Shown here piece by piece: positions 1-63,830 of a stretch of DNA of 64,000 nucleotides. A program made the position numbers and the translations under genes. Under the pieces are notes generated by a model that was not told the origin of the DNA, ran no database searches, and saw nothing but the letters and a program-made list of their open reading frames with translations. Origin of the DNA: Gyrodactylus bullatarudis (lineage: Eukaryota; Platyhelminthes; Monogenea; Gyrodactylidea; Gyrodactylidae); NCBI GenBank assembly GCA_012064415.1, contig SSNU01000098.1, forward strand, positions 1 to 64,000, written 5' to 3'. Within the stretch, counting starts at the first letter, position 1. Every line of letters begins with the position of its first letter.

Positions 1-158
1 GACACGAGTCCGGCTGCTGTGGAGGCGGTTGCGGTGGTGGCCACCATGGTGGCTGCTGCCACGGTCACCACGGTGGCTGTCACGGAGGTCACGGCTGCCA
101 CGGTGGCCATGGTGGCTATGGCGGCTGCGGTGGCTGTCACGGTTGCGGATGCTGTTGA
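1..158 (+). CDS. Gly/His/Cys-rich small protein, 3' end only
   Basis: Open frame from position 3 to TGA at 156-158; the 5' part lies outside the window. The visible 51 residues are almost all Gly, His and Cys with one Tyr. The peptide HESGCCGG and the ending CGCC are shared with the complete copies inside the COG3 intron (41322 and 45494), so this is a fourth, more diverged family member. It lacks their common 3' flank and uses TGA where they use TAA. It lies downstream of the ORP9 gene on the opposite strand. Function is unknown; density of Cys and His suggests metal binding or a cross-linked structural material, which is inference only. Confidence 0.6.
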   Translation, partial: HESGCCGGGCGGGHHGGCCHGHHGGCHGGHGCHGGHGGYGGCGGCHGCGCC

Positions 159-1411
159 ACCCATTGACATTTTTAATAAATTTTCTTCATTACTAAATTT
201 CTATATTTCCATTTCAATTCTATTTTCTTGTCTAGAAAGTCCATTGAATTTTTCTTCTGCTATTTCGGTTATATTCTTATTCCGATGACCAGTAATTAGG
301 AAAAGATCATCTCTCAAAAAGCTCATTATGAAAAAATATTCTATAGACCCTTGATTTTTTCATGGCTTTAGTGGCTACTACGCTCTTTGATGCTGCTTTC
401 AGATTTTATATTTATTTTTCATTTATTATTCCATTACAAACCGACCATTTACAACCTTGGTAATAATCAAAGCTTTAATAATGTATTTTGTGTAGGAAGA
501 GTAAAAAATGAACGAAAATGTCTCAATATAATATTCGAATCTGATTGGTTCAAGTTTCACTGTGAAAAAAATCCAACTAGCACATTATTATTTGTGTAAA
601 TAACTGTACATTTGGATATCTTCATCCGAGTTAAAAATCTCGTTTCGATTTTACTCACTTATCACCTCTTCCTGGTGTTTCATCTAATCAGGTTTTCTCT
701 ACTTATTTCTTCGAAATTACCTTTTCAGACCTTTGGATTTTATTTATCTATGGTGCTCAAAAGAAAAAAATGATGAATAGATAGAAAAAATATATTTAAT
801 TTGATATTCAGCGTATTTACACATTATTCAACTACTTCTGAATATAGTTTACGTCGTCCATATTGTTTAGGATTTTTAGGATACATGTATGTATCTTTAA
901 AAAGGGGGAACGTTGTGTAAGTCTCCTTTATGTCTACAGAAAAATAAATAATTTATTCAATTTGTTTTTTGGTAACTGAAATCATACACACACCAAGAAG
1001 TGCACTGAAAGACTGATGAAATTCTTTAATCTTCCTTTTTATGTCGATTGTGATAATTCTCGTTACCCCGACTGTTTGTAAAATTTAAGGGACAACAAAA
1101 GGATTTAACAAGTTTTGTTTTGTTTGAATTTCTCTCTTTGAAAGTATATAAAAATTTGACATTGATAATAGCGCCCTCTTCCAGTTGCTATCTCACTCTG
1201 ACTCTAATAGTATTTCAATTATGAATTTGTGCAATAAAATAATGATAAATTACATATTACGTATTATTATGTAATGTATAACTTTTGTATTTGTCCAACA
1301 ATATATATATATAATCAATAATCAGTAATAATTATGGGAAGATTAGGGCTTCGTCTCTTTTGCTATTTTTGATGTTTCTATTCAACAAATGAATAAGAGT
1401 TGTAGTAAAAA
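159..1411. other. Intergenic AT-rich DNA
   Basis: Between the Gly-rich gene tail and the ORP9 stop codon. I see only AT-rich sequence with short chance frames; no RNA gene or mobile element is recognisable. Confidence 0.5.
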
Positions 1412-19400: not shown

Positions 19401-22400
19401 CCTTTTCGGAATCTATGTATCGTCATGTATCGTATCAAAAAAGTCATACAAAATCAGCAATCAATTTTATTAAGGGTTAATTTCCAAAAGTGACCTCACA
19501 GAAAATTTTTTTCATAAATAACCCCGAAAAGGTCCATTGATACCAAAAATTGTATATTCTTACTGTCTTTATCACTTGGCCAAAATTATCATGGAAAAAT
19601 TCAAGATGGATATAGCATCTAGAGCAGAAGATGATAGTCATTTAAAACAAAATTTGAATTTATTGTCAGATAAATCTTTTGAAAGGCTTAACTTTAAGAT
19701 TGGAAATGAAATATTTTCTTATATAGAACCTTTGATAGAAAAAGTTTTACGCGAATCTGGGTTTTTCACAAGTTTACTCAATCCCCAAAAGTTACAAAAT
19801 AAATAAGAAACGCGGATGACCGTGCACGAGCCGAAAATTATCAAAAACTGAACAAATTTAACCCTCAAAGACCCAGAGAAATTTTTTTCAAGGTACATCG
19901 CTGGGGTACATAGTAGGGTTTTAAAATATGGTGATAACGAATATAGAATTTTTATCAAAAACCAACCTTTAGTTTAGAAGATATTGTCCAAAAAATGACC
20001 ATTTTTAGACCTTGAAAATGGCTAACGTTTTTATGAGATAAAGGTGATAATATATTTGAATTCTCGATAAAAGTTTCTTTATTTTTCTCTTCGATCTCTG
20101 TAAATGGTTTTTCAAAAAGACGTTCTTTGTATTTTTAAGGAAATTTTAATATATTTTTAAAAACAAGTCATTTTAAAATTGTCATAACTTCTCAATGAAC
20201 TATTGTAGCTTTAAAAGTTATAGTTCATTCGGAAGAATATTAGTTCTTCTTTCAGAAAAGTGGTCAATAAACTATTTTTAGTTTCTTTAAAACAGAATAA
20301 TGGCTTGAGAATTTAACCTGTCCCATATATGACCCGCTGGGGCTTAAAGGGTTAGTGTGAAATAAAATTATAACTTTTAACATGAAATAATTATTACAAT
20401 TGAAATAATCAAGTAAATTCTCAAATACTCAACTCTATCAGATCATTTAAATTGGAATTTGTGCAATTTAATACACTATATATGTTACAGTTAGAGTAAA
20501 GAATTAGGGAATATTAAAACTCCCTAGTTAATCTTGATAAACCGAGAGCTTTTAGTTAAAGTAATGAATGAATTAAATTTTCATTAGTTTAACTGAAAAT
20601 TCCCTGAAAATATACACCAAGTATAGTTTGTATATTCGATCTATTATCAATGTACAATATACATAGTATTCGTTGTATAATGTGGACTATTCCTAATAGG
20701 AATCTACGATGAACCCTATATTTTCAATTATTTCAATGAGATTTTATCTCACCTATTAATGTTTTATAATTATAATTTAAAAGTTCAAGTGATTCACGTA
20801 ATTTTTCAAAAACGTCCGAAAATCCACTTAAATACATAATTTAGGAGTATGTAGAAAAGATATATTTAGAACCATATGCGCATTTCTCAAAGGATCATCA
20901 GTGGTCTCTCTTTGAAAATGATAAAACTTAAAGTTTGAATGAAAAATAATAATTTACAAATTTTGAAAAGAATAGTAAAAGTTAAAGAATATTAGAGTCA
21001 TGAATGGAATTAGAATGTAATGTAAGCTGAAAAAACACCAAAAACTCTTCAATAAATAGCAACAGTGAAGAGAAAAAGGTGAAAAAGCTCACATAGGCCA
21101 CGGTAGTTGAAGGTTAAATGAGTAGTTCTTTTGAACACACAAATTAGGTTTATCCCTGTTGATGAAGAATTTCTCCTTCACCCACACATCTGTGCTGTCA
21201 TCCCCTGGGTTTTTGTATAAAATGGAAAAATTAGAGATTGAAGCAGCATGGTTTTCTTGTTTTATATGTCTGGTCACCGCGGTATCTTTATTGAGATGAT
21301 CATGACATCTAGTTGACAACTTTCTAATAGTACGTCCTATATACGAAGCCCCACAGTCACATTGAAACTTGTAAATTAATAGAGTCTTTTCTTGAGGTTC
21401 AAGTAAATCCTTATGGATTAAACTGAATAATCTCTGAGTTTTGAATACAATTTTCAATTGTATATTATTATAATGTTGATCGATGAGATTATTGAGTCTT
21501 CTCCTAACATCATTACTAAAACCATCACCTTTGAAGTTAAGTTTCATGAAAACTTTAGTTTTCTCGCCTTCCTCTGCATTGACAAACTCATCTCTAACCA
21601 AAGGTTGATTGATGAACTTGTCTACAAATTTGGCTGGATAACCATTTTCCATTAAACAAGACTTCGCCGTCTCTATTTCATTTGGTATTTCTTCTGGACT
21701 AGCAATCCTTCGAATTCTCTTTCCTAAACCGATTACTAAGCCAACTTTATGTGAAACTGGACTAAAACTGGCATAATGAAGATATTTGCCGTTGTCAGTC
21801 TTTTTCTTAAAAATATTTCTTAGAATCGATCCGTCTTCTCTTCTGGTCAACTTGACATCTAAGAAACTTAAAATATCGTTTGACTCTCTTTCCATAGTAA
21901 ATGTAATATTACTATGAAATGAGTTCATCTTTGTAAAGAAATCGTCTACAGATAGATTAGGTTTCATTATAATAAAAGTGTCATCAACATATCTAATGTA
22001 AACATCAGTAAAAGAATTAATAGTTTCAGACATTTTATTTAACTCTAACCATCCCAAGAAGATATCTGCTAGAAGAGGACTCAAAGGTGATCCCATTGCT
22101 ATTCCATCTTTCTGAATGAACACCTTGTTTTGAAATGATAAAGGAACATTGGTACAACAAATCCTAATAAGATCTGTTATCTCGTCACTACTCATGTCAA
22201 AACCTTCATGTTCATTAATAAAAGATTTTATTATTGTAAGGGTATCTTCTATAGGTACATTCGGAAATAAAGAACTAATGTCTAATGAAATCATTTCCCT
22301 AGATTCTATGTTTAAATCCTTTACTCTTTCTACAAAATCAAAAGTATCTTTAACAACATATTTAGCATAATAAGTATGTATAGGTTTCAAGATATCAATT

Positions 22401-25400
22401 AACCATTTNNNNNNNNNNNNNNNNNNNNNNNNNNNNNNNNNNNNNNNNNNNNNNNNNNNNNNNNNNNNNNNNNNNNNNNNNNNNNNNNNNNNNNNNNNNN
22501 NNNNNNNNNNNNNNNNNNNNNNNNNNNNNNNNNNNNNNNNNNNNNNNNNNNNNNNNNNNNNNNNNNNNNNNNNNNNNNNNNNNNNNNNNNNNNNNNNNNN
22601 NNNNNNNNNNNNNNNNNNNNNNNNNNNNNNNNNNNNNNNNNNNNNNNNNNNNNNNNNNNNNNNNNNNNNNNNNNNNNNNNNNNNNNNNNNNNNNNNNNNN
22701 NNNNNNNNNNNNNNNNNNNNNNNNNNNNNNNNNNNNNNNNNNNNNNNNNNNNNNNNNNNNNNNNNNNNNNNNNNNNNNNNNNNNNNNNNNNNNNNNNNNN
22801 NNNNNNNNNNNNNNNNNNNNNNNNNNNNNNNNNNNNNNNNNNNNNNNNNNNNNNNNNNNNNNNNNNNNNNNNNNNNNNNNNNNNNNNNNNNNNNNNNNNN
22901 NNNNNNNNNNNNNNNNNNAAATGGTTAATTGATATCTTGAAACCTATACATACTTATTATGCTAAATATGTTGTTAAAGATACTTTTGATTTTGTAGAAA
23001 GAGTAAAGGATTTAAACATAGAATCTAGGGAAATGATTTCATTAGACATTAGTTCTTTATTTCCGAATGTACCTATAGAAGATACCCTTACAATAATAAA
23101 ATCTTTTATTAATGAACATGAAGGTTTTGACATGAGTAGTGACGAGATAACAGATCTTATTAGGATTTGTTGTACCAATGTTCCTTTATCATTTCAAAAC
23201 AAGGTGTTCATTCAGAAAGATGGAATAGCAATGGGATCACCTTTGAGTCCTCTTCTAGCAGATATCTTCTTGGGATGGTTAGAGTTAAATAAAATGTCTG
23301 AAACTATTAATTCTTTTACTGATGTTTACATTAGATATGTTGATGACACTTTTATTATAATGAAACCTAATCTATCTGTAGACGATTTCTTTACAAAGAT
23401 GAACTCATTTCATAGTAATATTACATTTACTATGGAAAGAGAGTCAAACGATATTTTAAGTTTCTTAGATGTCAAGTTGACCAGAAGAGAAGACGGATCG
23501 ATTCTAAGAAATATTTTTAAGAAAAAGACTGACAACGGCAAATATCTTCATTATGCCAGTTTTAGTCCAGTTTCACATAAAGTTGGCTTAGTAATCGGTT
23601 TAGGAAAGAGAATTCGAAGGATTGCTAGTCCAGAAGAAATACCAAATGAAATAGAGACGGCGAAGTCTTGTTTAATGGAAAATGGTTATCCAGCCAAATT
23701 TGTAGACAAGTTCATCAATCAACCTTTGGTTAGAGATGAGTTTGTCAATGCAGAGGAAGGCGAGAAAACTAAAGTTTTCATGAAACTTAACTTCAAAGGT
23801 GATGGTTTTAGTAATGATGTTAGGAGAAGACTCAATAATCTCATCGATCAACATTATAATAATATACAATTGAAAATTGTATTCAAAACTCAGAGATTAT
23901 TCAGTTTAATCCATAAGGATTTACTTGAACCTCAAGAAAAGACTCTATTAATTTACAAGTTTCAATGTGACTGTGGGGCTTCGTATATAGGACGTACTAT
24001 TAGAAAGTTGTCAACTAGATGTCATGATCATCTCAATAAAGATACCGCGGTGACCAGACATATAAAACAAGAAAACCATGCTGCTTCAATCTCTAATTTT
24101 TCCATTTTATACAAAAACCCAGGGGATGACAGCACAGATGTGTGGGTGAAGGAGAAATTCTTCATCAACAGGGATAAACCTAATTTGTGTGTTCAAAAGA
24201 ACTACTCATTTAACCTTCAACTACCGTGGCCTATGTGAGCTTTTTCACCTTTTTCTCTTCACTGTTGCTATTTATTGAAGAGTTTTTGGTGTTTTTTCAG
24301 CTTACATTACATTCTAATTCCATTCATGACTCTAATATTCTTTAACTTTTACTATTCTTTTCAAAATTTGTAAATTATTATTTTTCATTCAAACTTTAAC
24401 TTTTATCATTTTCAAAGAGAGACCACTGATGATCCTTTGAGAAATGCGCATATGGTTCTAAATATATCTTTTCTACATACTCCTAAATTATAATTTATCT
24501 TATCTTCTTATCAAATGATTATCTAATTAGTCTATTCTTTTTATTTAAATTTAATCAGGCTTATTACTAATAAGTACTTAGTAATAAGTTATTAGTGTTC
24601 GATTGGATATTTTAATCGAATGGTTTAGTATTATTCTTTTCTGTGATTGGCTATTTTAGTTTCAAGGTGTAATTCTCTACTAGGTACATTTTAAAATACA
24701 TCATGTGTGATAAGGTTGAATTAGCACGCTTGAAATTTGAAGAATGTGTTATTAGTCAGAGGTCAAGCTAAAATTCCTTATTTAACAACATGTATATTCA
24801 AGAAGTTAATTTAAATTGATTGAAAAGAAATTCCTGGATAAGAAAAATATCCCTGAAAATTTTCTTTGAGAACAATGGAGAACCTACAATTAGTCGGTAG
24901 TGGCCAAGGATTTTTCAAGTGTGTATGCTAAAAATCATGAAATAAAAATTCATGCAAATGTAAGAAGAATAGTATACTGTACACTTTCAAGTTCCATTAT
25001 TCTCTTTCTTGTGATAGTAAAAATGAGGATCTAAATTTATTATATCTTTGAAATATGTTACTTGAATAAGGCTTGATTTTATTTTACTTCTTTGAAAAAA
25101 ATACGCCAGAATTCTTTCTGTATCATATAATTATATTAATAGTCCACATTATACAACGAATACTATGTATATTGTACATTGATAATAGATCGAATATACA
25201 AACTATACTTGGTGTATATTTTCAGGGAATTTTCAGTTAAACTAATGAAAATTTAATTCATTCATTACTTTAACTAAAAGCTCTCGGTTTATCAAGATTA
25301 ACTAGGGAGTTTTAATATTCCCTAATTCTTTACTCTAACTGTAACATATACATCATTTGAGTTAAAGTTTATCAAGTGACAGAATAAAAGGATGTTGACA

Positions 25401-37662: not shown

Positions 37663-40600
37663 ATGACATTAAGTAAGGATTGGGATGATCCGTCAAACTC
37701 CAAAGTGGCTCTCTCCAGTGAACAAATAAAGTTGCTTCATCAATTTGCTCCCACAAGCAACCGTATCGTCGCCAGAGTTGATTTACAATCTCAAAAAGAG
37801 AAAATTGAAACTAAACAACTATCTGAAGTTTATTCCTGGCTTTCTAATATTAAGTCTTTATCCAAAATTGATAAGAATTCCTCTAATAAGTACTTTTTTT
37901 TACATCTTTTTAATTTTAAAATAATAGATTTGAGGAGTCTCTGGATAATATTGAAAAAGAGGTTTCCAAAGTAAAGAACTATTTAGACACCGGTGTAGAT
38001 CTGATCAAAAAAATTCAGTCTGACTATGAAAATGTATCCACCAAGACCCATGATATTAACCAGCTCAGTCTTAAGATTCGTGAGTCTCAAAAATCTTTTC
38101 ACGAAAAGACAATATCGATTGAGAAAACACTAAAATACTTTGAAACAATTGACAGGTCAGAAAAAGTTCTCACTGACTCGACAGAATTTTTCAAAGAATC
38201 CTTTGAGCAAAACTTTGAGAATTTCTATGCTGCTGTATATTTTTTAAAAAGTAAAAGCTCCTACAAGGACTATGAAGAATACATGAAAAGGATCAACAAA
38301 ATTGAAACGAGTTTAACTTCAAACTTGAGTGATTCTATAAAAAAGACGTTTTCACTCTTATTCAATGAGTTGGCTACGGCAAATATGAAAATAGATGCTG
38401 ACAAATCATTCCTCTTGCTTTACGGAAGGTTCCGTACTAAGGCTACATCAATAAAAAATCTTTTTAGATTCTTTTATTATCATGATCAACAGACTACAGT
38501 TCAAAGAACGATATCAATTCAAATTGTACATTTTTACATTTATCGAAGGGAAGAGGTGATTATAAACGTTTGTTCCAGTGCCATTAATCTGATGAAATCC
38601 AAGAGCCAGGATCGATGTAGTTTACTAAGAAAAGTTTTATCATTCCATTTAAATATATACGAAGACGAGAGTCGATTGTTCAAGACCCTATTCGAGAACA
38701 ATCATGAAGAAATTTTGAAGTAAGTTTACCCATGCAAAATGAAAAAGAATCTAATAAGGAAAAAATCTTATTATCAAGCAATTACCTCCAGAACATTAGC
38801 AGCTCTATTTATGATGAATTATTGCCTATAATATTGGAAATAAATCATTTTGAAGTTCTAACTGAAATGATCAAAATCATGAAAGACGAACTAAGGGACT
38901 CAAGAGAGGATGGTGAGTCTTTATTATTTATGAAATGAATAGAAAAATATTTAAAAAAGAGATAAGAGAAAGGTTAGTGTCACAAAAAGAGTCCATCAGA
39001 GAGTATGGTGATTTTCGTATAAATAGTGTAGGCTGTGTTAGAGAGAGCATTCGAACAGAAAGTAACAAATCATGTGGGGTTGTGGGTAAGTGGAACATGA
39101 GGAGTTCATGTTAGTGAGGGAGAGTTTGATTACTGACTTACTTGTTTCAGTCCTTGTTGTGGCGGTTGCGGTTGCGGCTGTGGCTGTGGTCCTTGTGGCT
39201 TCGGAGGTTATGGTGGTCACCACGGTTGTGGCGGTCATCACGGCTGTTGTGGTGGCGGTGGCCATCATGGTGGCGGCCATGGCTGGCAACACGGTGGCGG
39301 TGGCCACCAATCCGGCGGCTGCCACGGTGGCTACCACAGAGCCTGCAGACACTGCAGCTGCTCTGAGTGCTGTGAAGGCGGATGCCATGGTGAACGGCGG
39401 CTATGGTGGTCACGGTGGCTATGGCGGCTGCGGTGGTTATGGTGGCTGCGGATGCTGTTAAGTGCACATCTCAGACCAATTTCGACTCTTTTCAAAAAAT
39501 ACACTTTCTTCAATCAACAATATCCATATTTTTTCTTAAGTATGCCTTTCATTCAATTTAGTGTTTACTTTCTCTTTATTGTTTTGGTTACAGGCTACTT
39601 TTTAGGCGAGTTATCCTCAAAAGACTCCCGATGAACAACTTATATAAGATTGGTAAAAGGAAAAGATTTTCATTTTGACTAAAATCTAACAGGCTTATTC
39701 GAGAATCTTATTCGAATTTATCAAATACTTTCTATATCCTATAAGAAAATAAATCCTTTTAGAAAATAATTAAGGGTTTTATTATTTTAACTCCGATTGT
39801 AATTGTAATTTAACTACATATTTTCAAGTGTAAATAAGTTTTGATCCTTTTATTCATTAATTTTTAATCGATCTCAAATATGCACACCATCTATAATCTA
39901 TTTGACATGACTAGATGAGTTCTATCAACGTTTCCCATCTTTATTGACCCTGTTATGAAAATCCTAATATTTTCAATTAACCGTTAAAAATTTCGTACTT
40001 CTTTATCACTAAGATCCTGAACATCTAATTCACTAAGTGAGTTTCCAAAATCATGTGTATAAGGCTTATACTATAAGCCAACCTCTAGTTAGAGACAACA
40101 GCAAGATGAAAACGAGAAACACTTGATGGACAGTTACAAATCACTCCTTTCATCATTTTTCAGATTGAGAACAGAAATGATTTCAATTTGGCTGCCTCGC
40201 CTCTCCATAACTTAAAAAGTCTAAGAATCATAATTAACCAATGGAGAGACTCAAAATCAATGCATTGTTATAATATTAAAAATGACATTTCATGAAGAAT
40301 TTTTCTAATAATTTTATGACTTTGATCCTAGGATTCAACCCAGTATCTTAGGAATGAAAAAACACTGTCCAGTTATATATTGAGATACCGTGAATAACTT
40401 TTGAAATTCTTTTCTTATCAACCATTCACAAACAAATGATTCCCAATTAGTAATCCTTATGACATAGTCCTGCTAGGTAGTTAAACTTTCTGAAAACAAA
40501 CAGCAGTTCATATTGAGTGGCTATGATCAGTGAATTAAATTTGATGTTTCCTCAAGTTCCGTTCCCATTCTATAGGAAATTTATTAATCTCCTGGAAAAC

Positions 40601-43600
40601 GCAAACATCTCAGCTCTATCATTCGTCAAACTCGTGCTATACTAACTCAAAGAAAGTTGATTTTTCCAAAAACTTAATTTTTGTTTAAAAAGTTTTTTAA
40701 AAACCTATTTCCCAAAGTCATAGATAGAAAGAAAAACAACTTTTATCGAGTAATCATACCCGTAGAAATCAAATATTCAACTCTTTCTGCTAAAGTTTTA
40801 AAGATAACCTATTTTTGGATAAAAGAAGGACCGAATTTTTGATCGACAACTCTTAAACTAAAAATGATAACTAAACAAAATGAAACTATAGATTCGTAAT
40901 CAGCGTATTCAAAGACCATTGACTAGACAAAAGATTGAATGCGTGCCACAAAAAAACTCTCAGGGAAATTAATGTTTAATTATGATACGGGGAAAAAGCG
41001 CCTAACATCTTCGAAAATATTTTCACTATTCAATAAGGAATAGAATTTGAAAGAAAAAATGTTAAAATAATCCTCAGAATAGTTCAATCATTGGGAGATT
41101 TATTAATTGATTCGTTTTAAATATTTAATTTCTCAAAACACTGATTCATTGTTTAAGTAGCATTAAAATTTAACGAAATATAATTAGTATTTATTGAAAT
41201 AATGATTAAAAGTTCAAAAATGGTTAGTGTCACAAAAAGAGTCCATCAGAGAGTATGGTGATTTTCGTATAAATAGTGTAGGCTGTGTTAGAGAGAGCAT
41301 TCGAACAGAAAGTAACAAATCATGTGGGGTTGTGGGTGAGTGGAACATGAGGAGTTCATGTTAGTGAGGGAGAGTTTGATTACTGACTTACTTGTTTCAG
41401 TCCTTGTTGTGGCGGTTGCGGTTGCGGCTGTGGCTGTGGTCCTTGTGGCTTCGGAGGTTATGGTGGTCACCACGGTTGTGGCGGTCATCACGGCTGTTGT
41501 GGTGGCGGTGGCCATCATGGTGGCTGCCATGGTGGTGGTGGTCAATGCCATGGTGGCGGCCATGGCTGGCAACACGGTGGCGGTGGCCACCAATCCGGCG
41601 GCTGCCACGGTGGCTACCACAGAGCCTGCAGACACTGCAGCTGCTCTGAGTGCTGTGAAGGCGGATGCCATGGTGGTGGACACGAGTCCGGATGCTGTGG
41701 TGGTGCCTCAGGTGGTGGACACCACGGCGGCGAGTGCCATGGCCATCACGGTGGCTGCCACGGAGGTCACGGCGGCTATGGTGGTCACGGTGGCTATGGC
41801 GGCTGCGGTGGTTATGGTGGCTGCGGATGCTGTTAAGTGCACATCTCAGACCAATTTCGACTCTTTTCAAAAAATACACTTTCTTCAATCACAAAACTTA
41901 TCTTGAACATATCTAGATGTTCTATTTTAATCTCAACATTAATTGATTCTATTTTCATTCTTCAATATTCTTGTGAGAAGTTTAAGACAGGTTCTTTAGG
42001 TAAGCTCACACCAATTTACCTTAACCTTTGGTTGACTTGAATCCCATCATTACTCTCAATCTGCTAGATATTTTCTTCTGCCTCTATTCATTGCAAACCT
42101 TTTTCAAGTCTTCTTTCACAATTATAGTTTCTCATAGAACGCCATTCTAGTAATTCTTCTCATGTTTTTATTAGGGTTATTTGATTTTAAAAATAAATCC
42201 CTTGAACGATTTAGCCAAATTACTGAAAAATTATATCAATTTACTGTAGCAAAAGAAACATATGCCTACTCAAACAATAATTTGATGTTCATTTCTTATA
42301 TCTTTTGTTCAATGATCTCTGGATTTCGTTTATGTAGCAACTGTTGATTAGGAGTAAATTTCAGGAGTTCAATTTTGGTAATATTGAAACGCCCGACCGT
42401 AAAAGTTATTGAATGGTCTAAAATATTTCGAATTGTGTTAAACTTTTTGAAAAAAATTAATTCCAAAGTAGTGACAAATAGAGCCGAAGTTTTATTCTTA
42501 GGCGTTCAATAGAAAAATAATGGCCTGACTTCTTACAGTTAATCTTTGTTATTCTGAGGACTTTTAGGCTTCTGTTTGAAGACACAGCTCTAAGTTGTGT
42601 TATGAATGAGTTTGAAAGGAAGTCAAGATATAAACTTTTAGTGGTCACCTATAGAATCAGCTCTAATAATAAGAACCTAGATTTGCGTAATATATTTTTT
42701 TCTAACTAAGAGTTCCCCAAAGGAGAAAGTTCAATCTTAGAAAAGAAGCTGAGAAGTCTATTTTTGGAATTTTACTATTTACCTCAATCCCTCATGGGAA
42801 TTATAATTATTTATGAAATTAGATGTCAGTTTTTTAAAGAATAGAGATCTCTTTTTTTGTTACTATCAAATTGATACACCCCTTATAAATACAGGTTTTT
42901 TAGGGACATTATCAAAAACTACATATAGGGGTAGGGAATCTATCAAAACCTACATGTATATTTAAAAAATTTACATGGTCTATTCCGGTATATTATCACT
43001 TCCTACATGACTAGTTATCACTTTTAAAATGTGTGTTCCATTAATTACATAATCTACATATACATTTCATTATCTACATATCCCATGGTCTTAATTACAA
43101 ATACTACATAAATTTATCAAATTCTACATGTTGATTGGTTAATTTTTTCTAAATGTTAGTTAGATGCACCCTTTTACCAGCTATTATCTGATACCTAATG
43201 AAAAAGACCATGTAAATTTTGTAAATATACATGTAGGTTTTGATAGATTCCCTTCTCCTATTTGTAGTTTATGATAATACCCCGATTTTTTATTACGAAC
43301 GAAATGTATTTTCAACTCTTATTAGTCTATATAGGTGTTAATAAATGAGATTTGTATATTTCATGACCAATGTGTACACTTTGATCAGTGAACAAAGATG
43401 AACAATGTGTATGTTTTAGGCTCGACAAAGTGTGTGAGACCCTCCATTGGATGTTTCAATTCCTATCAAGTTGTAGGATTTCAGACTCACACAAGTTTAG
43501 CTTGTTGAAGGAATAATTGTAAAATACAATTTTCCAAGTCATCCAGTGTCAAAGTTTCCACATTGCTCATTAGGCCTCATGAACAATAGCAATTTGTATG

Positions 43601-46600
43601 CTTTGAACAATGTGTACACCGAGTATACAAGTTGGTCGTAACATATACAATTCAAGTACTGGAAACATGATAATTCCTATTAAATCATTGTGCTGCTGAG
43701 ATTTTACTTGATTAGATCTGTTGGTCCATTTCTTATATCTCTTTTCGTCTTTTTTACTATGTCACTAGTTCATTCTAAGTCTATTGAAGATTTTATAAAT
43801 CTAAACCTATTTAATATGAAGATGGGGGTTTATTTATTTTTACAAAATTCTCAGTATTTTCATCAGGAAATCGAATTTGATCAAGATTTTTTGGAATCTA
43901 GATCATGAGACCCACTTTCACGATACGCAGAAAATTTTTTGTAAAAATCAACTTTTAAGGTAATTATGAGATATTTCAAATCTCGAGTTAGCGCCAAATT
44001 CCCATATTTTTGGACTTTGAGTTGAAAAGTTTTGTTTATTTCAAACTCAAAGAGTTGTCATAAGCTGATCTCATAACTCGAGATTTGAAATATCCCATTA
44101 TTTCTTTAAAAATTGATTTTTACAAAAAATTTTCTGCGTATCGTGAAAGTGGGTCTCATGATTTAGATTCCAAAAATTCTTGATCAAATTCGATTTCCTG
44201 ATGAAAATACTGAGAATTTTGTAAAAATAAATAAATTCCAATCTTCATGTTTACTAGCTTTACTTTCTTCTGTGATCTTAACTGAAAGATTAGCCGGGGA
44301 CAAGAATGTTCTAAAAAACTTAACTCTATAGTAGAGCACCGCTCTTTTTCGTCAAACAAGCAAAATTAACTTAGCATTTGGTAATGTACAAAATCTGGGC
44401 ATTTTATATTATACCTAGGTGTATATTTTCTATTCCTATTTTTTGCTTTACAAATTATCTAGTATAAAAATAATTAAATCAGAAAACAATATTCAATCTA
44501 CAGTATTATCGTACTATCATTTGAGAAAAAGTTCATGATTTACCTTGTTTTTATTAATGCAGACCAATTAGATAATATCAACCAGGTTTTCATTTGAAAC
44601 ATTCTTGTCATTTTATCGCAGAAAAATAAACCTTGATACAAAAAAGTTGGCAGATTTAAAAGAACTTTTCGTAAAAAAATATTAAACACAAATTGGCTTA
44701 AACTCGACATTATTCACCTGTCGATTTGATCAAAAGTATAAAGGATCTTGATTTTGGTCATCTCTTTATACATGATAAGACCCTCTTTGATATAACCCCC
44801 TTTGCAGAAATAACTAAAATGGCTAATAAAGCATAATTTCATGATTTGATGTTTAAAGTTTCCTCTAAAATCTGTAAAAGAGTAGCATTCCAGGAAAGTA
44901 CATGTCAAATTCTTCTCATTAAAGTCCTAATCAATGCTCATCAATGTTGGTCGGTAGGGTATCTATCTATGATTTACTCATCAATTTTTCATCAAGAATC
45001 TAGACCGATTATTCTATCGTTTTCAGAGGGTCAAGGTGATTCTTCAGGATCAAAATCTGCTTGTTGCATTCATTTCTTGGCAAAGAGTTGGGAGTACTTC
45101 ATTTTGTTCTTTTTATTGCATAAAATAGGCTCTCAAGAGTTTCTATAAGGTTGGTCATAAGTTTGGTTTGGGCATAAGCAAAGATTAATTCTAGAACAGC
45201 TTTATACAACTGGTAAGATCAAATCCATGTGGCCATTCGTTACGAAAACTAATTATGTAGAGCTATATTACTCCAATTTTCAGTGCTCATCATGGATTCA
45301 ATTGAAAATTTCTTATCCTTAATTCGAGAGGCATTAAACTTTTGACAAAATATAATTAGTATTTATTGAAATAATGATTAAAAGTTCAAAAATGGTTAGT
45401 GTCACAAAAAGAGTCCATCAGAGAGTATGGTGATTTTCGTATAAATAGTGTAGGCTGTGTTAGAGAGAGCATTCGAACAGAAAGTAACAAATCATGTGGG
45501 GTTGTGGGTGAGTGGAACATGAGGAGTTCATGTTAGTGAGGGAGAGTTTGATTACTGACTTACTTGTTTCAGTCCTTGTTGTGGCGGTTGCGGTTGCGGC
45601 TGTGGCTGTGGTCCTTGTGGCTTCGGAGGTTATGGTGGTCACCACGGTTGTGGCGGTCATCACGGCTGTTGTGGTGGCGGTGGCCATCATGGTGGCTGCC
45701 ATGGTGGTGGTGGTCAATGCCATGGTGGCGGCCATGGCTGGCAACACGGTGGCGGTGGCCACCAATCCGGCGGCTGCCACGGTGGCTACCACAGAGCCTG
45801 CAGACACTGCAGCTGCTCTGAGTGCTGTGAAGGCGGATGCCATGGTGGTGGACACGAGTCCGGATGCTGTGGTGGTGCCTCAGGTGGTGGACACCACGGC
45901 GGCGAGTGCCATGGCCATCACGGTGGCTGCCACGGAGGTCACGGCGGCTATGGTGGTCACGGTGGCTATGGCGGCTGCGGTGGTTATGGTGGCTGCGGAT
46001 GCTGTTAAGTGCACATCTCAGACCAATTTCGACTCTTTTCAAAAAATACACTTTCTTCAATCAACAAATTGTCTCGTTTTTTTATTTCATGGAATTCTTT
46101 TCATTGAGTCAGAATAAATTTATTTACCGCACTTTTTGAACAAAATCTCAATTTCTGTTTATTCTTTCTTCCAGATTTTGTCTCCTATGAACAGTATGAG
46201 AACATTAACAGGGTTTTCCTCAAAGATCTATGCGAACGTCTTGTAATTCGTGCAGATGCCTATTTAAACGAACAGATTCTTAAATATCAAACCTTTGATG
46301 GTGACCTAGCATATCCCAATTGTCTCCTCATGGCATGGGTGAGAAAAATGCATTTCAATATCTCAAAGGTTTCCTGGAATCATTGAATTTTTGTATTCCT
46401 TAGAAAATTTCATGTTCGGATAAACTGATTAATTCAAAGGAAGATGATAATAAACACCTCTACAACTGTATCATTGAATTTTTATGTGAATCCCTTGACA
46501 ATGGTAATGAAGATCAATTTGGTACAGACGATGAATCATTCGAGAGTAGTAATCCTTTCAGAAATTCCTCCAGAGCACCATCCGACATTCAGGGTATGTG

Positions 46601-56489: not shown

Positions 56490-57867
56490 TTTAGATCTAT
56501 TGTGTGACATGACAGATTTAAGATTAGTCAGGTCATTACAATCAGACAATTTATATTTTAAATTAATAGCGTTGAAATTAGATAATAGGTAATTAGCATC
56601 GTATTTAGAATCCTGAGATTATAGTTATTCTCAGAAACGGAATAGGACTCAGAAAATTTTTTAACTATGAACGCATATCAAATTAACAAGAATATTTCCT
56701 CACGAAGAAAATTATGCATTCTAAATTGAATATTATTTTTTTACTTTTTTCTGGAGTAAGCCCTTGTCAAATAAATGGAAACAAATCTTATCTTACTTGA
56801 TCATGAACCATCTCTTTCATTCATGCTGGTTCTAAAGTGTCTCAATCTCGTAACAAGGTTTGATCTGAGAGCTTTTAAGTGGTCCAACAAAAATTTAAAC
56901 TTGGAATTTCATTTCAACTTTATTCATTTCATAACTGAATGTCTGATCAGTAGGGCCTCAATAAAGTACTATTTAGTATATTTTTACTCTTTTTTTTGTT
57001 AGAAAAATTTATTAATATATACAATATAGGTAAATATGAACATAAATAAATCTTATATAACAATATAATGTGCAAAAATATACAATACATATTTGGTCTA
57101 TGTGATTTAGTTCATTTAACAGTCAAGTAACTAAATGAGTCTGAGCAATAATTCGAAGACCAAACTGGATTTGATAATTTATAAATGTAGGGAAGAGTAT
57201 AAGAGAGATTTTGAATAATCAATTTTTGATCTAATATATGCCATAATAGATTTAAGATCATGGGTGTTGTTACAATCTGAAAGATTGTATTTAGCATCTA
57301 ATTGTCTAAAAGACGACAATAAAATATGGTCATTATAGTTTTTATTCCTTAGATTGTAAGAGGAGGTAATGGATGACGACGAGTTTGTAAAACTTTTTAT
57401 AATAAAAGCGCATCTTCTGATCCACAGTGGCTGTAGCCCCGAGATCGAGATGAGCGCATTGTAAGAGTCAAGTTTCGGATACAGAGAGTGTAAAAACGAT
57501 ATTGGATTCTTTCAATCTCTAAAGATTGATAGTGATTTATATCGTATAAAAGAGGAAATAAATAGTCAAAATGACTTAGGACTAGGCATTTATAAGCTTT
57601 TAGTTTAAGTACAATAGATTTGGAGAATTTTTGAATAGTTTTTAAATAATAAAAAATCTTTTTAAAATTAGAATAAGGGTCAATTTTTAATTTTGAATCA
57701 ATACTGAAACCCAGATCAAAAGTAAAGGAGACTATTTCTCCAGGAAATAGAAGCGATTCAAGGAGGGTTGCAGGGAGACCCAATGGGAGCATTATCTTGC
57801 ATTTATCTCTGAGAGCCCCATGGACTCGAGTGAATCTTTTAAAGAGTAGAAGTAGTACTCTAGACAA
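56490..57867 (-). pseudogene. LINE ORF2 3' fragments (CR1/jockey-like)
   Basis: The minus-strand frame 57867-57397 (156 aa) parallels the C-terminal part of the LINE at 63099-63830. KCKIMLPLGLP, GEIVSFTFDLGFSID and LEIERIQYRFYTLC correspond to KCKIMTPINLP, GEFVSSTIDLGFEID and LELERVQYRFLHYL. After a frame disruption the similarity continues to about 57110. A second remnant of the same 3' segment (TTACAATCAGACAATTTATA) is at about 56490-56700. Both are 5'-truncated, the usual outcome of LINE retrotransposition, and non-functional. Confidence 0.7.
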
Positions 57868-59159
57868 AGGACTGGCTGAGTTGCAATAATCTGAAGAAAA
57901 AATTTAAACTGAAAGGATATATTTTGAAAAATATGCGCTATAACAGTTAAATGGTCAAAAATATTTGACAAAAATCAGAAATTTTGATGACACAAGATTT
58001 GAATACTTCTAAATTTTGCAAGAATTTACTATTTTTACTCAGAATCTCTTAAATTTTCTTCAAGGTACTATTTTTTATTTTATTTGGTACTATTTTTGAG
58101 GCCCTGCTGATCAAACAGAATATTCTCCTATATTCAACCGAATAAGTAATTTTTATGTTTTGTTGTTGAAAATTCTCCTATTTTTCTCAAAAAATGCTAT
58201 TCTGTAAACGCCCATTTTATAGTTTAAGTTTATGTGGAAAATTATCCATTTAATTATTATCATCAGACATTTAGATAGGGGAAAATATTTTCAGATATAA
58301 ATCAGACCTTGTGATATGTGTAAAGTGTCAGTTGTATGGTAAAAGAATGGCGCTTAATTTCGTCAGCCTTTCAACCCCCTACATGTCTCCAATTATACGT
58401 TTTTTATAAACCAAAATAATTACACTAATTTCGAACCTGAATCGGTTTCGAGAATCAAAATTTCGTTCAAATGATGAAGATGGTTAAAATTTTCATTTCA
58501 TTCGCCCAAAATGAGTTTTCTTCTAAACTCTATGACAGAAATCAAGTTTAAGCATTGTATTCGAAATCTAAAAGCATGATTGTACGATAGAAAGATATCT
58601 TAATTCAACTTCGAGACCTTTCTTGATAGAAAGTTTTAGGCTGCTTTTCTCTTTCGAATGCAATGAAATCAAAAGGATCTGGGCATTTTTTCGATCAGGA
58701 TTTTAGATAGAAATACTATTTTTTTGTAGCAAAAAATTTTATTTCTAAGGTGAAAAAGGATTTACCAAATTAATTATTCCCATTAGTTTCCAATGTCAAT
58801 TAATCCTGATTAGTAAGAACGAAATTCTCTTTAATTGTAATTGATTAAGTTTACAAGCTGGTTCAATCAACAATTGAGTAAAAGTTAACGATTAGGAGGA
58901 GAAATATCTTTCCGAAATTCCTATGCTATAACCAAATGTCTTTGAATACAAACATATATTGATTTTTATTCATAATTATGCATACGTTACACACGTATGA
59001 CTTCCTTAAAGATTATGAGTAGAGGGTAGAAGACTGCTTTCCTCATAGATAAACTTGAATCTATAGTATCAAATGTTAAAATATTTGTGGATTCCGAGTT
59101 AAGATTTAAATAATCTCTCGTCCCTGACTAGTCCTTCAGTGTTAGATCACAGAAGAAAG

Positions 59160-59847: not shown

Positions 59848-60122
59848 AAGTCTTCATCCAAAAAGATGGGATAGCTATGCGTTCCCCTATTAGTCCTCTT
59901 TTAGCTGATATCTTCTTAGGCTGGTTAGAACTAAATAAAATGTCTGAAACAATCAATTCTTTTACTGATGTTTACATCAGATATGTCGATGACACTTTTA
60001 TTTTGATGAAGCCTAACGTATCATTACATGATTTTTTCTTAAAGATGAACTCTTTTCATCCAAATACCAAGTTTACTATGGAAAAATAATCTAATGATAT
60101 TTTAAGCTTCTTAGATGTGAAA
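59848..60122 (+). pseudogene. Penelope-like reverse-transcriptase fragment
   Basis: Encodes [20 protein letters not shown] and [15 protein letters not shown], clearly the RT motif B-C region of the elements at 21089-24238 but diverged in nucleotides. A TAA at 60087-60089 interrupts it, after which DILSFLDVK continues in the same frame to about 60122. It begins abruptly at about 59848 and stops where the LINE starts, so it is a truncated copy into or next to which the LINE inserted. Confidence 0.8.
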
Positions 60123-60123
60123 A

Positions 60124-61359
60124 ATGTTTAACTACGTACCCGATGGCGGTTGCTCTGAATTTCCTCGTGTTGACTTGATCCTCAATGATATTAATAGTTT
60201 TGTCAATACGAAACTTCAAATCATCAAATCAATCTCTGATTACAAGGACAAATTGATTACCGATTTATATAACGAAATCTCTTTCCTCGAACGTTCTCGA
60301 ATTCAAAACTGTCCTCGTCCACTAAATCGCCATGGTATATTACCCGATTCTTCATTTGTTCAAACTCAAACTTCCACTGAATTTAATCATGATAATAGAA
60401 AAATTACCTCTGATTGGAAGACTGTTGGTCAGTTTAAGAAACCTTCTAACTCTGCGGAGATAGCTAAATCTTATAATGAAACACACAATGGTAACTACAA
60501 TCAACTTTACTATGATTGTAATCGTTTCAAATCCTTGCAATATTTAAAAAACAATCATTCTTCTACCAACCCAAGATCTGTTTTACCATCCTTCAAATTC
60601 AATAATATCTATAGAAGCAAAAAATCTCTTTTAATTATTCATGGCGATGAACTTTCATTGCAAAATGCTAATGACATTATTAATTTTATACGCCAGAATG
60701 GCGTTACGTTCAACTCTAGAATTATTCCAGGCCCTACTATTGATGGAAAACTAATCAACATTAAGATCCAGTCCTCTGTGAAACTCTCCAACTCTATGCT
60801 CAGTCTTTTATATATGCATTTCAAGCCAGTTGGTATTACGGTTACTCGACATAATCAACGCAAGATGGAGTCCCTGCGTAAGGCCAAGAAGACTCAAGTT
60901 GAACTCAAAACTACAAATCTAAAACAAAATCAACCATGTTCTTCCACTCAAACCACGGAATCCTCTGTATCTTCAATCACTGATTCTAAAATGGAACGTG
61001 ATATTTACAATGAAACAACAAACTCTACCCTTAAACGTGTCGATATGTCAAACTCCGGCTCTCCAGCTAATGAAAGGAAAAAGCATAACTCGGTTCCTGA
61101 TCCTTCCTCAGTTTATACTCAACCACCTCCATGTGATCATATCGCTCACGGATTGAATAATGATATTTCATTAAATGTTGACCTTGACCTCTCCCGACCT
61201 GGTAAACTGATGTCCTCTCCAAAGAAAGACTTTTCGTGTTTCTCTGCTACTGGCTCTGTGACTGCTCCGGTTTCATCCATCACTCCAGCCACGACCTCCG
61301 ACAAAATCTCCAAAGCCACTAATTCTGTGAACAAAGCATTTAATCAGTCCTTTCGGTGA
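60124..61359 (+). CDS. LINE ORF1-like protein, unrecognised fold
   Basis: 411-codon open frame immediately upstream of the endonuclease/RT frames, as expected for a LINE ORF1. Its N-terminal 70 residues are helical (FVNTKLQIIKSISDYKDKL). A middle region at about 170-255 (SLLIIHGDELSLQNANDII, then MLSLLYMHFKPVGITVTRHN) has alternating hydrophobic strands that could be an RNA-binding fold. The C-terminal third is Ser/Thr-rich and disordered. No CCHC zinc knuckle is present. It ends TGA at 61357-61359, overlapping the start of the ORF2 frame. The frame is intact although ORF2 is damaged. The first ATG directly follows the Penelope fragment, so a 5' part may be missing. Confidence 0.65.
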   Translation: MFNYVPDGGCSEFPRVDLILNDINSFVNTKLQIIKSISDYKDKLITDLYNEISFLERSRIQNCPRPLNRHGILPDSSFVQTQTSTEFNHDNRKITSDWKTVGQFKKPSNSAEIAKSYNETHNGNYNQLYYDCNRFKSLQYLKNNHSSTNPRSVLPSFKFNNIYRSKKSLLIIHGDELSLQNANDIINFIRQNGVTFNSRIIPGPTIDGKLINIKIQSSVKLSNSMLSLLYMHFKPVGITVTRHNQRKMESLRKAKKTQVELKTTNLKQNQPCSSTQTTESSVSSITDSKMERDIYNETTNSTLKRVDMSNSGSPANERKKHNSVPDPSSVYTQPPPCDHIAHGLNNDISLNVDLDLSRPGKLMSSPKKDFSCFSATGSVTAPVSSITPATTSDKISKATNSVNKAFNQSFR

Positions 61360-63830
61360 GTTCCATGGTTTCTTTTTATTAAATGTAAGATCCCTCTTGT
61401 CCCAGAATTCATTTTTTCACATTTCCAACATTATATCCTCTTATAAGCCACTGATGTTTTTCTTAACTGAAACGTGGCTAAAACCTGATAAACTTGACAA
61501 TTTACTTTTTATTAATGACTATAAGCTTATCAGATCTGATAGAACACCATCCAGGGGTGGTGGTGTCTGTGTCTATGTACACACATCTTTAAGTATATCC
61601 TCATTGAAGATCATCACATCACCTACTCAAATAATCAGCTTGGATGTCTCTTTTGAAGGTCTAATTCATAGGTTTATTTTGGTCTACAAGCCACCTGTTG
61701 GAAGTGATTACCTTATTGATGACGATACTTTGTTATCACTCTTGTCTCCGCTTTTACCTAAGACCCTTGTGAACCTCACCATTTTAGGTGATTTTAATTT
61801 CCCCTCAACTAACCATTTGCCAGATATTCCATTTATCTTTGACTCAATTCTTAATAAATTTAATCTAAGACAGATTATTAATCTACCGACTAGATAATAT
61901 CCTGGATCTCGTCTTTAATAACTCGTTTTTCTTCATCTCAATCAAAACGATTCCGTTCTCCGATCATAACTTGATTTTTGTTAGAACCAATCCTTGTTCG
62001 CAACATTCAAGATTTTACTCTAAAACTAAGAAAGTTGTTGACTTCAAACGTGCTAACTTTCTATACTGGAGATATAAAGATTTTCTTTTCTTGAATAATG
62101 ATTTTAATAATAATATCTTTCGCCACATAATTGTAAATTCGACACGAACTACCATTAATTACCGTAAGATACTTACGTCTCTTGATGACTTCAACCTTAT
62201 TAGCATATCCTCTTTTGAAAGAATTCTATCAGAGGATCTTAAATCGTGTCCTAAGAGAGGATGGTCTAAATTCAAGAATCTGCTAAACATTAATCGTTAC
62301 TCTTCCATAGCCAACTTCACCACTCTGGACGAATTTGGCTTTCGTGAAGCTCTTAATGATTATTTTGCTTCTGTTTTTAACTCTCAGGAAGATTTAGAAC
62401 TCCTCTCTCCCTCTGATTCCCCTCCAATAATTTCTTCCTTTGATTTAATTAGAATTATGAAATCCTGTAGAGCTAGATCTCGCATCGACTCAAATTTTAA
62501 TTCATTTAAACTGATTGAGGCTCTCCCTGATTGTTTTCTTATTCATCTATCTGTTTTTCTTAATAGCTGCATTGAGCAGAGCTTCATTCCTGATGAGTGG
62601 TTAGAAGTAATTATTACTCCCATCCCCAAATGCACGAAGTACACAGATTTTTCTGATCTCAGGCCCATTTCATCGCTTAATATCTTCCTCTCACTGTTAG
62701 ATCGTTTTCTCTCTGATTATATTCGGCAGGAAATTCCCTCTGATTTCTCAGACCATTCTCAACATGCATTCTCACATGGTAAAGGAACCTGTTCTAATCT
62801 TATTGACTTCCTAAACTATACTGTACCACTAAAATCCTCGGGTCATTATCTCATAATTCATTACATTGACCTCTCTAAAGCCTTCGACAAATTAAAGTTC
62901 TCGTACATTGTTAACAAACTAATTTCTGTTAATATTGATAGATCAATAATTAACCTGGTTATTCTCTTCTTAACAAGAAGAAATCAACGAGTTAAGTTTA
63001 ACTCAGACTTTAGCTCCTCTAGATTGATAACATCTTGGGTCCCTCAGGGATCAGCATTAGGTCCTCTGCTCTTCAACCTCTGATTAGCTGAAATTCAAAT
63101 GCCTAGTAATCTTGGTAAAATATTACTTGCTATCAACAATTTTTTTTCATCACTGAAGACATCTCTTGAAAAAATGGGACTGGAAATTAATAGGAACAAG
63201 TGCAAAATAATGACCCCAATCAATCTCCCTGAACCCTTCCTCTCTAATCTGCATTTACCTGGTGAATTTGTTTCATCCACTATTGATCTTGGTTTTGAGA
63301 TTGACTTTTCCCTTAAAATTGCACCTCTTACAAAAATTAATCACCTTAAAACTGTTTGCTACATAATCAATCGTTTCACTAATACCAAGGATCTGAAGAT
63401 ACTAGCTTTCAAGTGTTTTGCACTTCCTAGCTTTGATTATGTAGCTCCTCTTCTACCCTTCATTACGAACTCTGCTTCCCTTGAATTAGAAAGAGTTCAG
63501 TATAGATTCCTTCACTATTTATACCCCACCCTTGACTCTTATAACGCCTTGATTATAACATCAGGTCTTGATCCAATTTGGATTCGTAGAATAGCTTTTA
63601 TCGTTAAGACTTTCTCCAATAGCTCATCTTTGGCTCCGGTGAGCTATGCACTTAGAAACCCATCTTTCACTTACCATTATCTACTCTCTACCTATAGACT
63701 CCTTGACTCCATTTTTGAATTTCTTGATTGTGATGATCTATCAAATTTAAAAATAATAATTTCTTATATGAGAGAAAAACTTAATTATTCATCTACCCTT
63801 CTCAAATCTGAACTTCATTTAAAAAATTAA
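61355..63830 (+). pseudogene. LINE ORF2 (endonuclease + reverse transcriptase), defective
   Basis: CR1/jockey-like polyprotein. The first part, to 61897, has the APE endonuclease: NVRSLLSQNSFF, FLTETWL, RGGGVCVYV and LGDFNFP. A frameshift near 61893 follows; in the new frame NILDLVFNN and FSDHNLIFV complete the endonuclease. The reverse transcriptase then has LRPISSLN (motif 1-2 region), IDLSKAFDKL (motif A) and PQGSALGPLLFNL (motif B). TGA at 63081-63083 and a deletion follow. The frame resumes with NRNKCKIM, so the catalytic [YF]ADD of motif C is missing. The C-terminus, with LELERVQYRF, ends TAA at 63828-63830. It cannot encode an active enzyme. Confidence 0.82.

Follow-up and report, generated by a model that had tools for sequence, protein, structure and literature searches.

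A dispersed, partly intron-nested family of glycine-, cysteine- and histidine-rich protein genes in a gyrodactylid genome, and its possible role in the haptoral hooks

The stretch of DNA analysed here (the window; 64,000 nucleotides (nt), positions 1-64000 of contig C26, 31% GC) contains three copies, c1, c2 and c3, of a small gene for a glycine-, cysteine- and histidine-rich protein, which lie together in an intron of the gene COG3 and belong to a family dispersed through the genome. The host was identified by a profile search of its spliced exons: 37920-38719, 38779-38912 and 46175-46338, all on the + strand, joined into one continuous COG3_C match covering profile positions 2-202 of 303 (E-value (E) 2.2e-28), and the 5' limit of the 37920-38719 exon is provisional. 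Because the continuous match spans the intervening DNA, the three copies share a single intron of 7,262 nt (38913-46174, + strand). The preliminary description of this DNA had placed them in COG3 intron 3 on the sense strand; the host and the strand are borne out, while the number of the intron is only plausible.

Copies c2 (41176-41891) and c3 (45348-46063), both on the + strand, were found to be identical over 716 of 716 nt, as had been described. In c2 the TATA box (TATAAATAG, 41268-41276) stands 54 nt upstream of the ATG and is followed by a 14-nt coding exon 1 (41322-41335, encoding MWGC and the first 2 nt of a glycine codon), by a 65-nt phase 2 intron (41336-41400, GTGAGT...CAG) whose position and phase are common to the modelled paralogues, and by exon 2 (41401-41836), which has its core around YHRACRHCSCSECCEGGCHGGGHESGCC and ends in TAA. 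The corresponding elements of c3 are the same TATA box, again 54 nt before the ATG (45440-45448), exon 1 (45494-45507), the 65-nt intron (45508-45572) and exon 2 (45573-46008). Removal of the GT-AG intron gives the same protein of 149 amino acids (aa) from either copy, with 70 Gly (47.0%), 28 Cys (18.8%) and 24 His (16.1%); the c2 protein has two Arg and is devoid of Leu, Ile, Val, Thr, Asp, Asn and Lys. The composition recomputed in this way agrees with the earlier figures of about 47% Gly, 19% Cys and 16% His in 149 aa, and the copies do have their own TATA box and 65-nt intron. The third, damaged unit also exists in the same intron, but it sits at 38969-39516 (+ strand), outside the interval 41176-46063 that had been assigned to the group. 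Copy c1 retains a TATA box (39018), an ATG (39072), exon 1 (39072-39085) and the intron (39086-39150), and its exon 2 has two deletions, an in-frame one of 33 nt and an out-of-frame one of 92 nt, with the result that its reading frame departs from the family sequence. The 3' part of a further family member occupies positions 1-158 (+ strand), cut by the start of the contig, which is also the window start. Two foldback repeats were observed in the COG3 intron as well, at 43802-44262 and 42903-43283, with arms of 189 nt (93% complementary) and 82 nt (90% complementary).

The genome (77.3 Mb in 471 contigs) was searched at both the DNA and the protein level, and the locus counts are lower bounds. 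A genome-wide count, which had been proposed earlier for the 716-nt unit and was here run on the whole family, gave at least 20 loci, 15 of them with an intact frame. Four are on C26, three each on C426 and C242, two on C128, and one each on C421, C135, C103, C345, C112, C290, C190 and C306. The five loci that are not intact are c1 (frameshift), the C290 locus (a two-piece match with N between the pieces) and three members truncated by contig ends, at the window start and on C190 and C306. Since contigs end within family genes, this suggests that the true copy number is above 20. C190 (positions 1-120 of its locus) and C26 (window 1-190) both begin inside a family gene, and the two starts agree through the stop codon and diverge after it. 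The nested copies first seen as a local feature are thus real, but they make up only three of the at least 20 genomic loci, and nesting in host introns is not limited to COG3. The C112 gene lies between two antisense exons of ODAD2/ARMC4 (GTAAGT donor, AG acceptor), which when joined encode 120 aa matching ODAD2/ARMC4 without gaps (PDB chain 7rro_H7, residues 463-582, E 2.5e-48).

The modelled members share a common anatomy. TATAAA occurs 40-80 nt upstream of the ATG in 12 of 13 family promoters, some of which are related and so not independent; for the other ATGs on the + strand of the window the figure is 51 of 975 (5.2%). In a k-mer scan of 12 upstream regions, only GCACA (6/12) and AGCACA (5/12) fell under a corrected 0.05 beyond the TATA box. 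Exon 1 is of the type MWGCG, MCWGCG(CG), MCCGCC, MCCCG or MCGCG, and is followed by a GTRAG donor and a phase 2 intron of 28-98 nt; the intron of the C135 member is just 28 nt long. Exon 2 consists of variable GC-rich repeats and then the core, in which 85 of 123 ungapped columns are invariant among nine members (C242d left out). Of the 15 intact proteins, 14 end in GCGCC, the exception being C242d with GGCC. Cys makes up 19-33% of all 15 intact proteins and His 16-19% of 11 of them; CGPCC is found near the N-terminus in most modelled members, and CC and CxC motifs are present. Inspection by eye of the first 25 residues of 18 models revealed no hydrophobic stretch, in keeping with the earlier remark that no secretion signal is visible. 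A related Gly- and Cys-rich subfamily with the core WPCCVYCIPCC occupies three loci on C130; one frame has 46% Gly and 36% Cys, and of the two loci whose upstream DNA was examined, both have an MCGCG exon 1 and one has a TATA box.

The ratio of non-synonymous to synonymous divergence (dN/dS; Nei-Gojobori, ten distinct members) was 0.02-0.21 in 27 of 45 pairs, dS being not computable in the other 18 and above 1 in many of the 27, so that the ratios are rough. The proteins of C345 and C128a are 96% identical at a dS of 0.60. These comparisons indicate that the family protein is strongly constrained and, with at least 20 loci and a gene structure shared by the modelled members, the observation is not due to chance. 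Among the 38 variable core columns, exchange of Cys with His was seen in 11, of Cys with Gly in 14 and of Gly with His in 10, the corresponding figures being 2 for Cys-Ser, 1 for Cys-Tyr and 0 for Cys-Arg. Because a Cys codon cannot become a His codon by a single base change, the Cys-His pattern is unlike the product of mutation alone. Cys and His both bind metals and both react with quinones, and their exchange suggests metal or quinone cross-links besides disulphides.

Nine of the 15 intact genes fall into four identical groups (c2/c3, C426a/b/c, C128a/b and C242a/b). The preliminary description had called the COG3 copies recently duplicated, a reading that their surroundings do not favour: when the 200 nt on either side of each shared tract were compared by local alignment with 50 shuffles, five of six identical pairs, c2/c3 included, had flanks no more alike than shuffled sequence. 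The flanks of C128a/b are still related (scores of 41 and 55 against shuffled maxima of 28 and 30), as in an ordinary duplication. The tract edges also vary by pair, that of C426a/b starting at the TATA box and that of C242a/b 3 nt before the ATG, with two different promoters behind. Because the flanks are unrelated and the tract edges differ, conversion or homogenisation by the assembler is favoured; a single recent duplication would account for the five pairs less well than gene conversion, and much the same picture would arise if the assembler had placed one consensus at several sites. Mobility of the 716-nt unit as an element was considered and rejected, as the tract ends differ between identical pairs, the intron is kept and a poly-A tail is absent.

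The single COX1 match in the genome is 89% identical over 100% of the query to the Gyrodactylus albolacustris cluster. Next, at 83-84%, come Macrogyrodactylus (84%), Cichlidarus and Paragyrodactylus, which we take to be gyrodactylids, and the rest of the 120 matches listed reach at most 71%; insect, mite and copepod origins were set aside on this result. COX1 lies on the same strand as, and downstream of, a frame read by eye as nad3, and carries an AAA codon at a site that holds Asn in flatworms (LPRLxALSA). This supports the gyrodactylid family well and the genus Gyrodactylus probably. The published genome of G. bullatarudis is 84.35 Mb with 31.26% GC and that of G. salaris 67.38 Mb with 33.85% GC, and G. 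kobayashii has 38.5-38.6% GC (PMC12677651).

No relative of the family came to light in the searches made. Pfam gave no match to the 149-aa protein at E<=10 and no family at E<=1 for any of the ten alignment members (exon 2 frames), and NCBIfam and PDB gave no match to the family proteins. In a database of 5.8 billion proteins, none of the 7,988 candidates scored reached E<=0.1, in a search whose sensitivity for Gly-rich queries is low, as the places for candidates can be taken up by Gly-rich proteins unrelated to the query. When FAD synthase was used as a query against the same database, the best matches were at most 42% identical over most of the query and included no close species; since no close kin was found, nuclear proteins of this organism or its near relatives are probably absent from it. 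Other gyrodactylids may well have the family. The AlphaFold prediction for the c2 exon 2 frame had a mean predicted local distance difference test score (pLDDT) of 37; the composition, the low score and the lack of a visible signal peptide are more in keeping with a cross-linked matrix than with a folded enzyme.

We propose, as a serious possibility that falls somewhat short of probable, that the genes in the COG3 intron encode an intracellular structural protein held together by cross-links, with the haptoral hooks as its most likely site. The preliminary description had offered a metal-binding protein or a cross-linked structural material; the latter is favoured here, and metal (or quinone) cross-links are possible within it. 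The genes would be expressed from TATA promoters, and their proteins would be synthesised in the cytosol and hardened by disulphides together with bridges open to both Cys and His, that is, metal coordination or quinone adducts. The product would form the sulphur-rich, "keratin-like" matrix of marginal hooks and hamuli, the haptoral sclerites, and would be deposited in hook-forming cells; the dose would come from having several copies, which gene conversion would keep nearly identical. As expected of a sclerite protein, the 15 intact members are sulphur-rich, capable of disulphide bonding and encoded by a gyrodactylid. Sclerites of three Gyrodactylus species are described as high in sulphur and as "keratin-like" protein, citing Shinn and Lyons; they hold trace elements, and vanadium is reported in the hamuli and ventral bar (PMC5428946). 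Disulphide bonds and pepsin resistance have been reported for hamuli and marginal hooks (PMC6389168), and this keratin-like disulphide chemistry is traced to Lyons 1966 (cited in PMC6389168, PMC5428946). In cestodes, the oncospheral hooks are described as forming inside oncoblasts (PMC5040746), as would fit a protein that lacks a signal peptide.

Several points weigh against the assignment to hooks. The link to these structures rests on composition and organism. The account of intracellular formation documents it for cestode oncospheres only; in it the hook-forming centre also contains Golgi regions, a possible sign of secretion, and the rostellar hooks of the same cestode have a different origin (PMC5040746). 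For the sclerites of diplozoid monogeneans, chitin or a resilin-like material has been suggested (PMC5428946). Intermediate-filament matches over the cut-off were found on C412, C252 and C227, and "keratin-like" could thus mean another protein; it is also possible that a filament is the partner of the family proteins. One tyrosinase locus (C420) makes quinone tanning possible. Gly also joins in the residue exchanges and the sequence is repetitive, so that repeat turnover may explain part of the Cys-His pattern, and the His-poor C242d (13 His in 153 aa) and C130 subfamily (5 in 98) indicate that His is not essential across the group. Lastly, other intracellular Cys-rich structures, such as the sperm tail, fit the sequence as well.

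A sperm-tail family like Drosophila Mst(3)CGP or the outer-dense-fibre proteins would likewise comprise intracellular Cys-Gly proteins, in that case stabilising the flagellum through disulphides. The gyrodactylid proteins resemble such a family in being small, Gly- and Cys-rich and multi-copy with no signal peptide seen, and in the CGPCC near the N-terminus, which in c2 (CGPCCGGCGCG) includes a CGP. However, Mst(3)CGP is defined by repeated Cys-Gly-Pro, of which the 18 models have just 0-2 per protein, and most of the intact gyrodactylid members have the abundant His given above, which to our knowledge is not a feature of Mst proteins; we regard this explanation as unlikely. Drosophila Mst84D/Mst87F are described as having repeated Cys-Gly-Pro and as male-specific (PMC10645079).

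A soluble protein for metal storage or detoxification, with Cys thiol and His imidazole ligands as in a metallothionein-like molecule, would account for the 28 Cys and 24 His among the 149 residues, for the CC and CxC motifs shared with metallothioneins and for the Cys-His exchange. The family is nevertheless dominated by Gly and His and without a Pfam or NCBIfam match, a Gly content of 47% and the number of loci (about 20, with TATA promoters) point rather to a structural product made in bulk, and the trace elements held by sclerites (PMC5428946) make metal binding compatible with a hook protein as well; storage is, on balance, quite improbable. We give about as little weight to another hardened structure (copulatory-organ spines, embryonic envelope or eggshell-type material) or an adhesive. 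The tyrosinase locus and the fact that flatworm eggshell proteins are Gly-rich speak for it; proteins of eggshells and glands carry signal peptides for secretion, though, and none was seen in the family. Gyrodactylus is moreover viviparous (PMC10537664). The eggshell profile PF08034 (TES) had no match in the genome, and as it matched nowhere the result is uninformative. It is very improbable that the loci are a collapsed or misplaced satellite or decayed, functionless pseudogenes: the frameshift in c1, and the unreliable assembly seen in the three of 20 loci cut by contig ends (C26, C190, C306) and in the break at N on C290, are outweighed by 15 intact frames, the low dN/dS, common TATA boxes and splice sites, and loci dispersed over many contigs with different flanks.

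To place the proposed hook protein among known systems, mammalian keratin-associated proteins (KRTAPs, high-cysteine and high-glycine-tyrosine) are likewise multi-copy Gly/Cys-rich structural proteins that come in subfamilies. Unlike the gyrodactylid proteins, KRTAPs are not known to be His-rich or their genes to contain introns, and none of ten gyrodactylid members has a Pfam match. The identical bodies of the four groups, with shuffle-like flanks in five of six pairs, recall the concerted evolution by gene conversion described for the high-cysteine groups of KRTAPs, a hair-protein family said to be unique to mammals (PMC2528016); the caveat on assembler homogenisation applies here too. Annelid jaw proteins (Nvjp-1, Nai11527) share Gly and 16% His in a hard mouthpart, and His-zinc hardening has been proposed for them, but Nai11527, of which a partial sequence amounts to about 53 kDa, begins with a signal peptide and is characterised by its His and Gly (PMC13120676), whereas the gyrodactylid family adds its 19-33% Cys and has no signal peptide seen. 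The monogenean sclerite "keratin" is likewise sulphur-rich, disulphide-bonded and gyrodactylid; it is available as a chemical description only, no gene having been seen tied to it, which makes a sequence comparison impossible.

Elsewhere, Rfam and tRNA scans of the 64-kb window gave no matches, and Pfam searches of ten frames neighbouring family loci gave mostly nothing useful. A reverse transcriptase at 21089-24238 (RVT_1 by Pfam, Penelope-like by eye) forms a perfect mirror pair (1320/1320 nt, and 161 nt further out) flanking a gap of 510 N, which is due either to an inverted element or to mirroring by the assembly. Open frames at 57179-57903 (- strand) and 60121-63830 (+ strand) resemble, by eye, pieces of retrotransposons of the long interspersed element (LINE) type.

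It is possible, if doubtful, that the family is the monogenean hook "keratin" itself and represents a class of intracellular biomaterial that had no name before, with Cys and His as interchangeable cross-linkers on a glycine scaffold, and that the dispersed genes, partly in host introns, are kept alike by conversion. In the literature surveyed (titles and the beginnings of abstracts, mostly outside subscription journals), no gene is named for a monogenean hook protein. Hook link aside, a family of about 20 loci that is constrained, homogenised and in part nested in introns, with no relative in the searches made, merits a name. If the proposal is true, the disulphide chemistry of hair would be joined with the His-metal chemistry of worm jaws in one natural material where Cys and His can substitute for each other, and molecular tests would become feasible for the organ by which a major group of fish parasites attaches itself.

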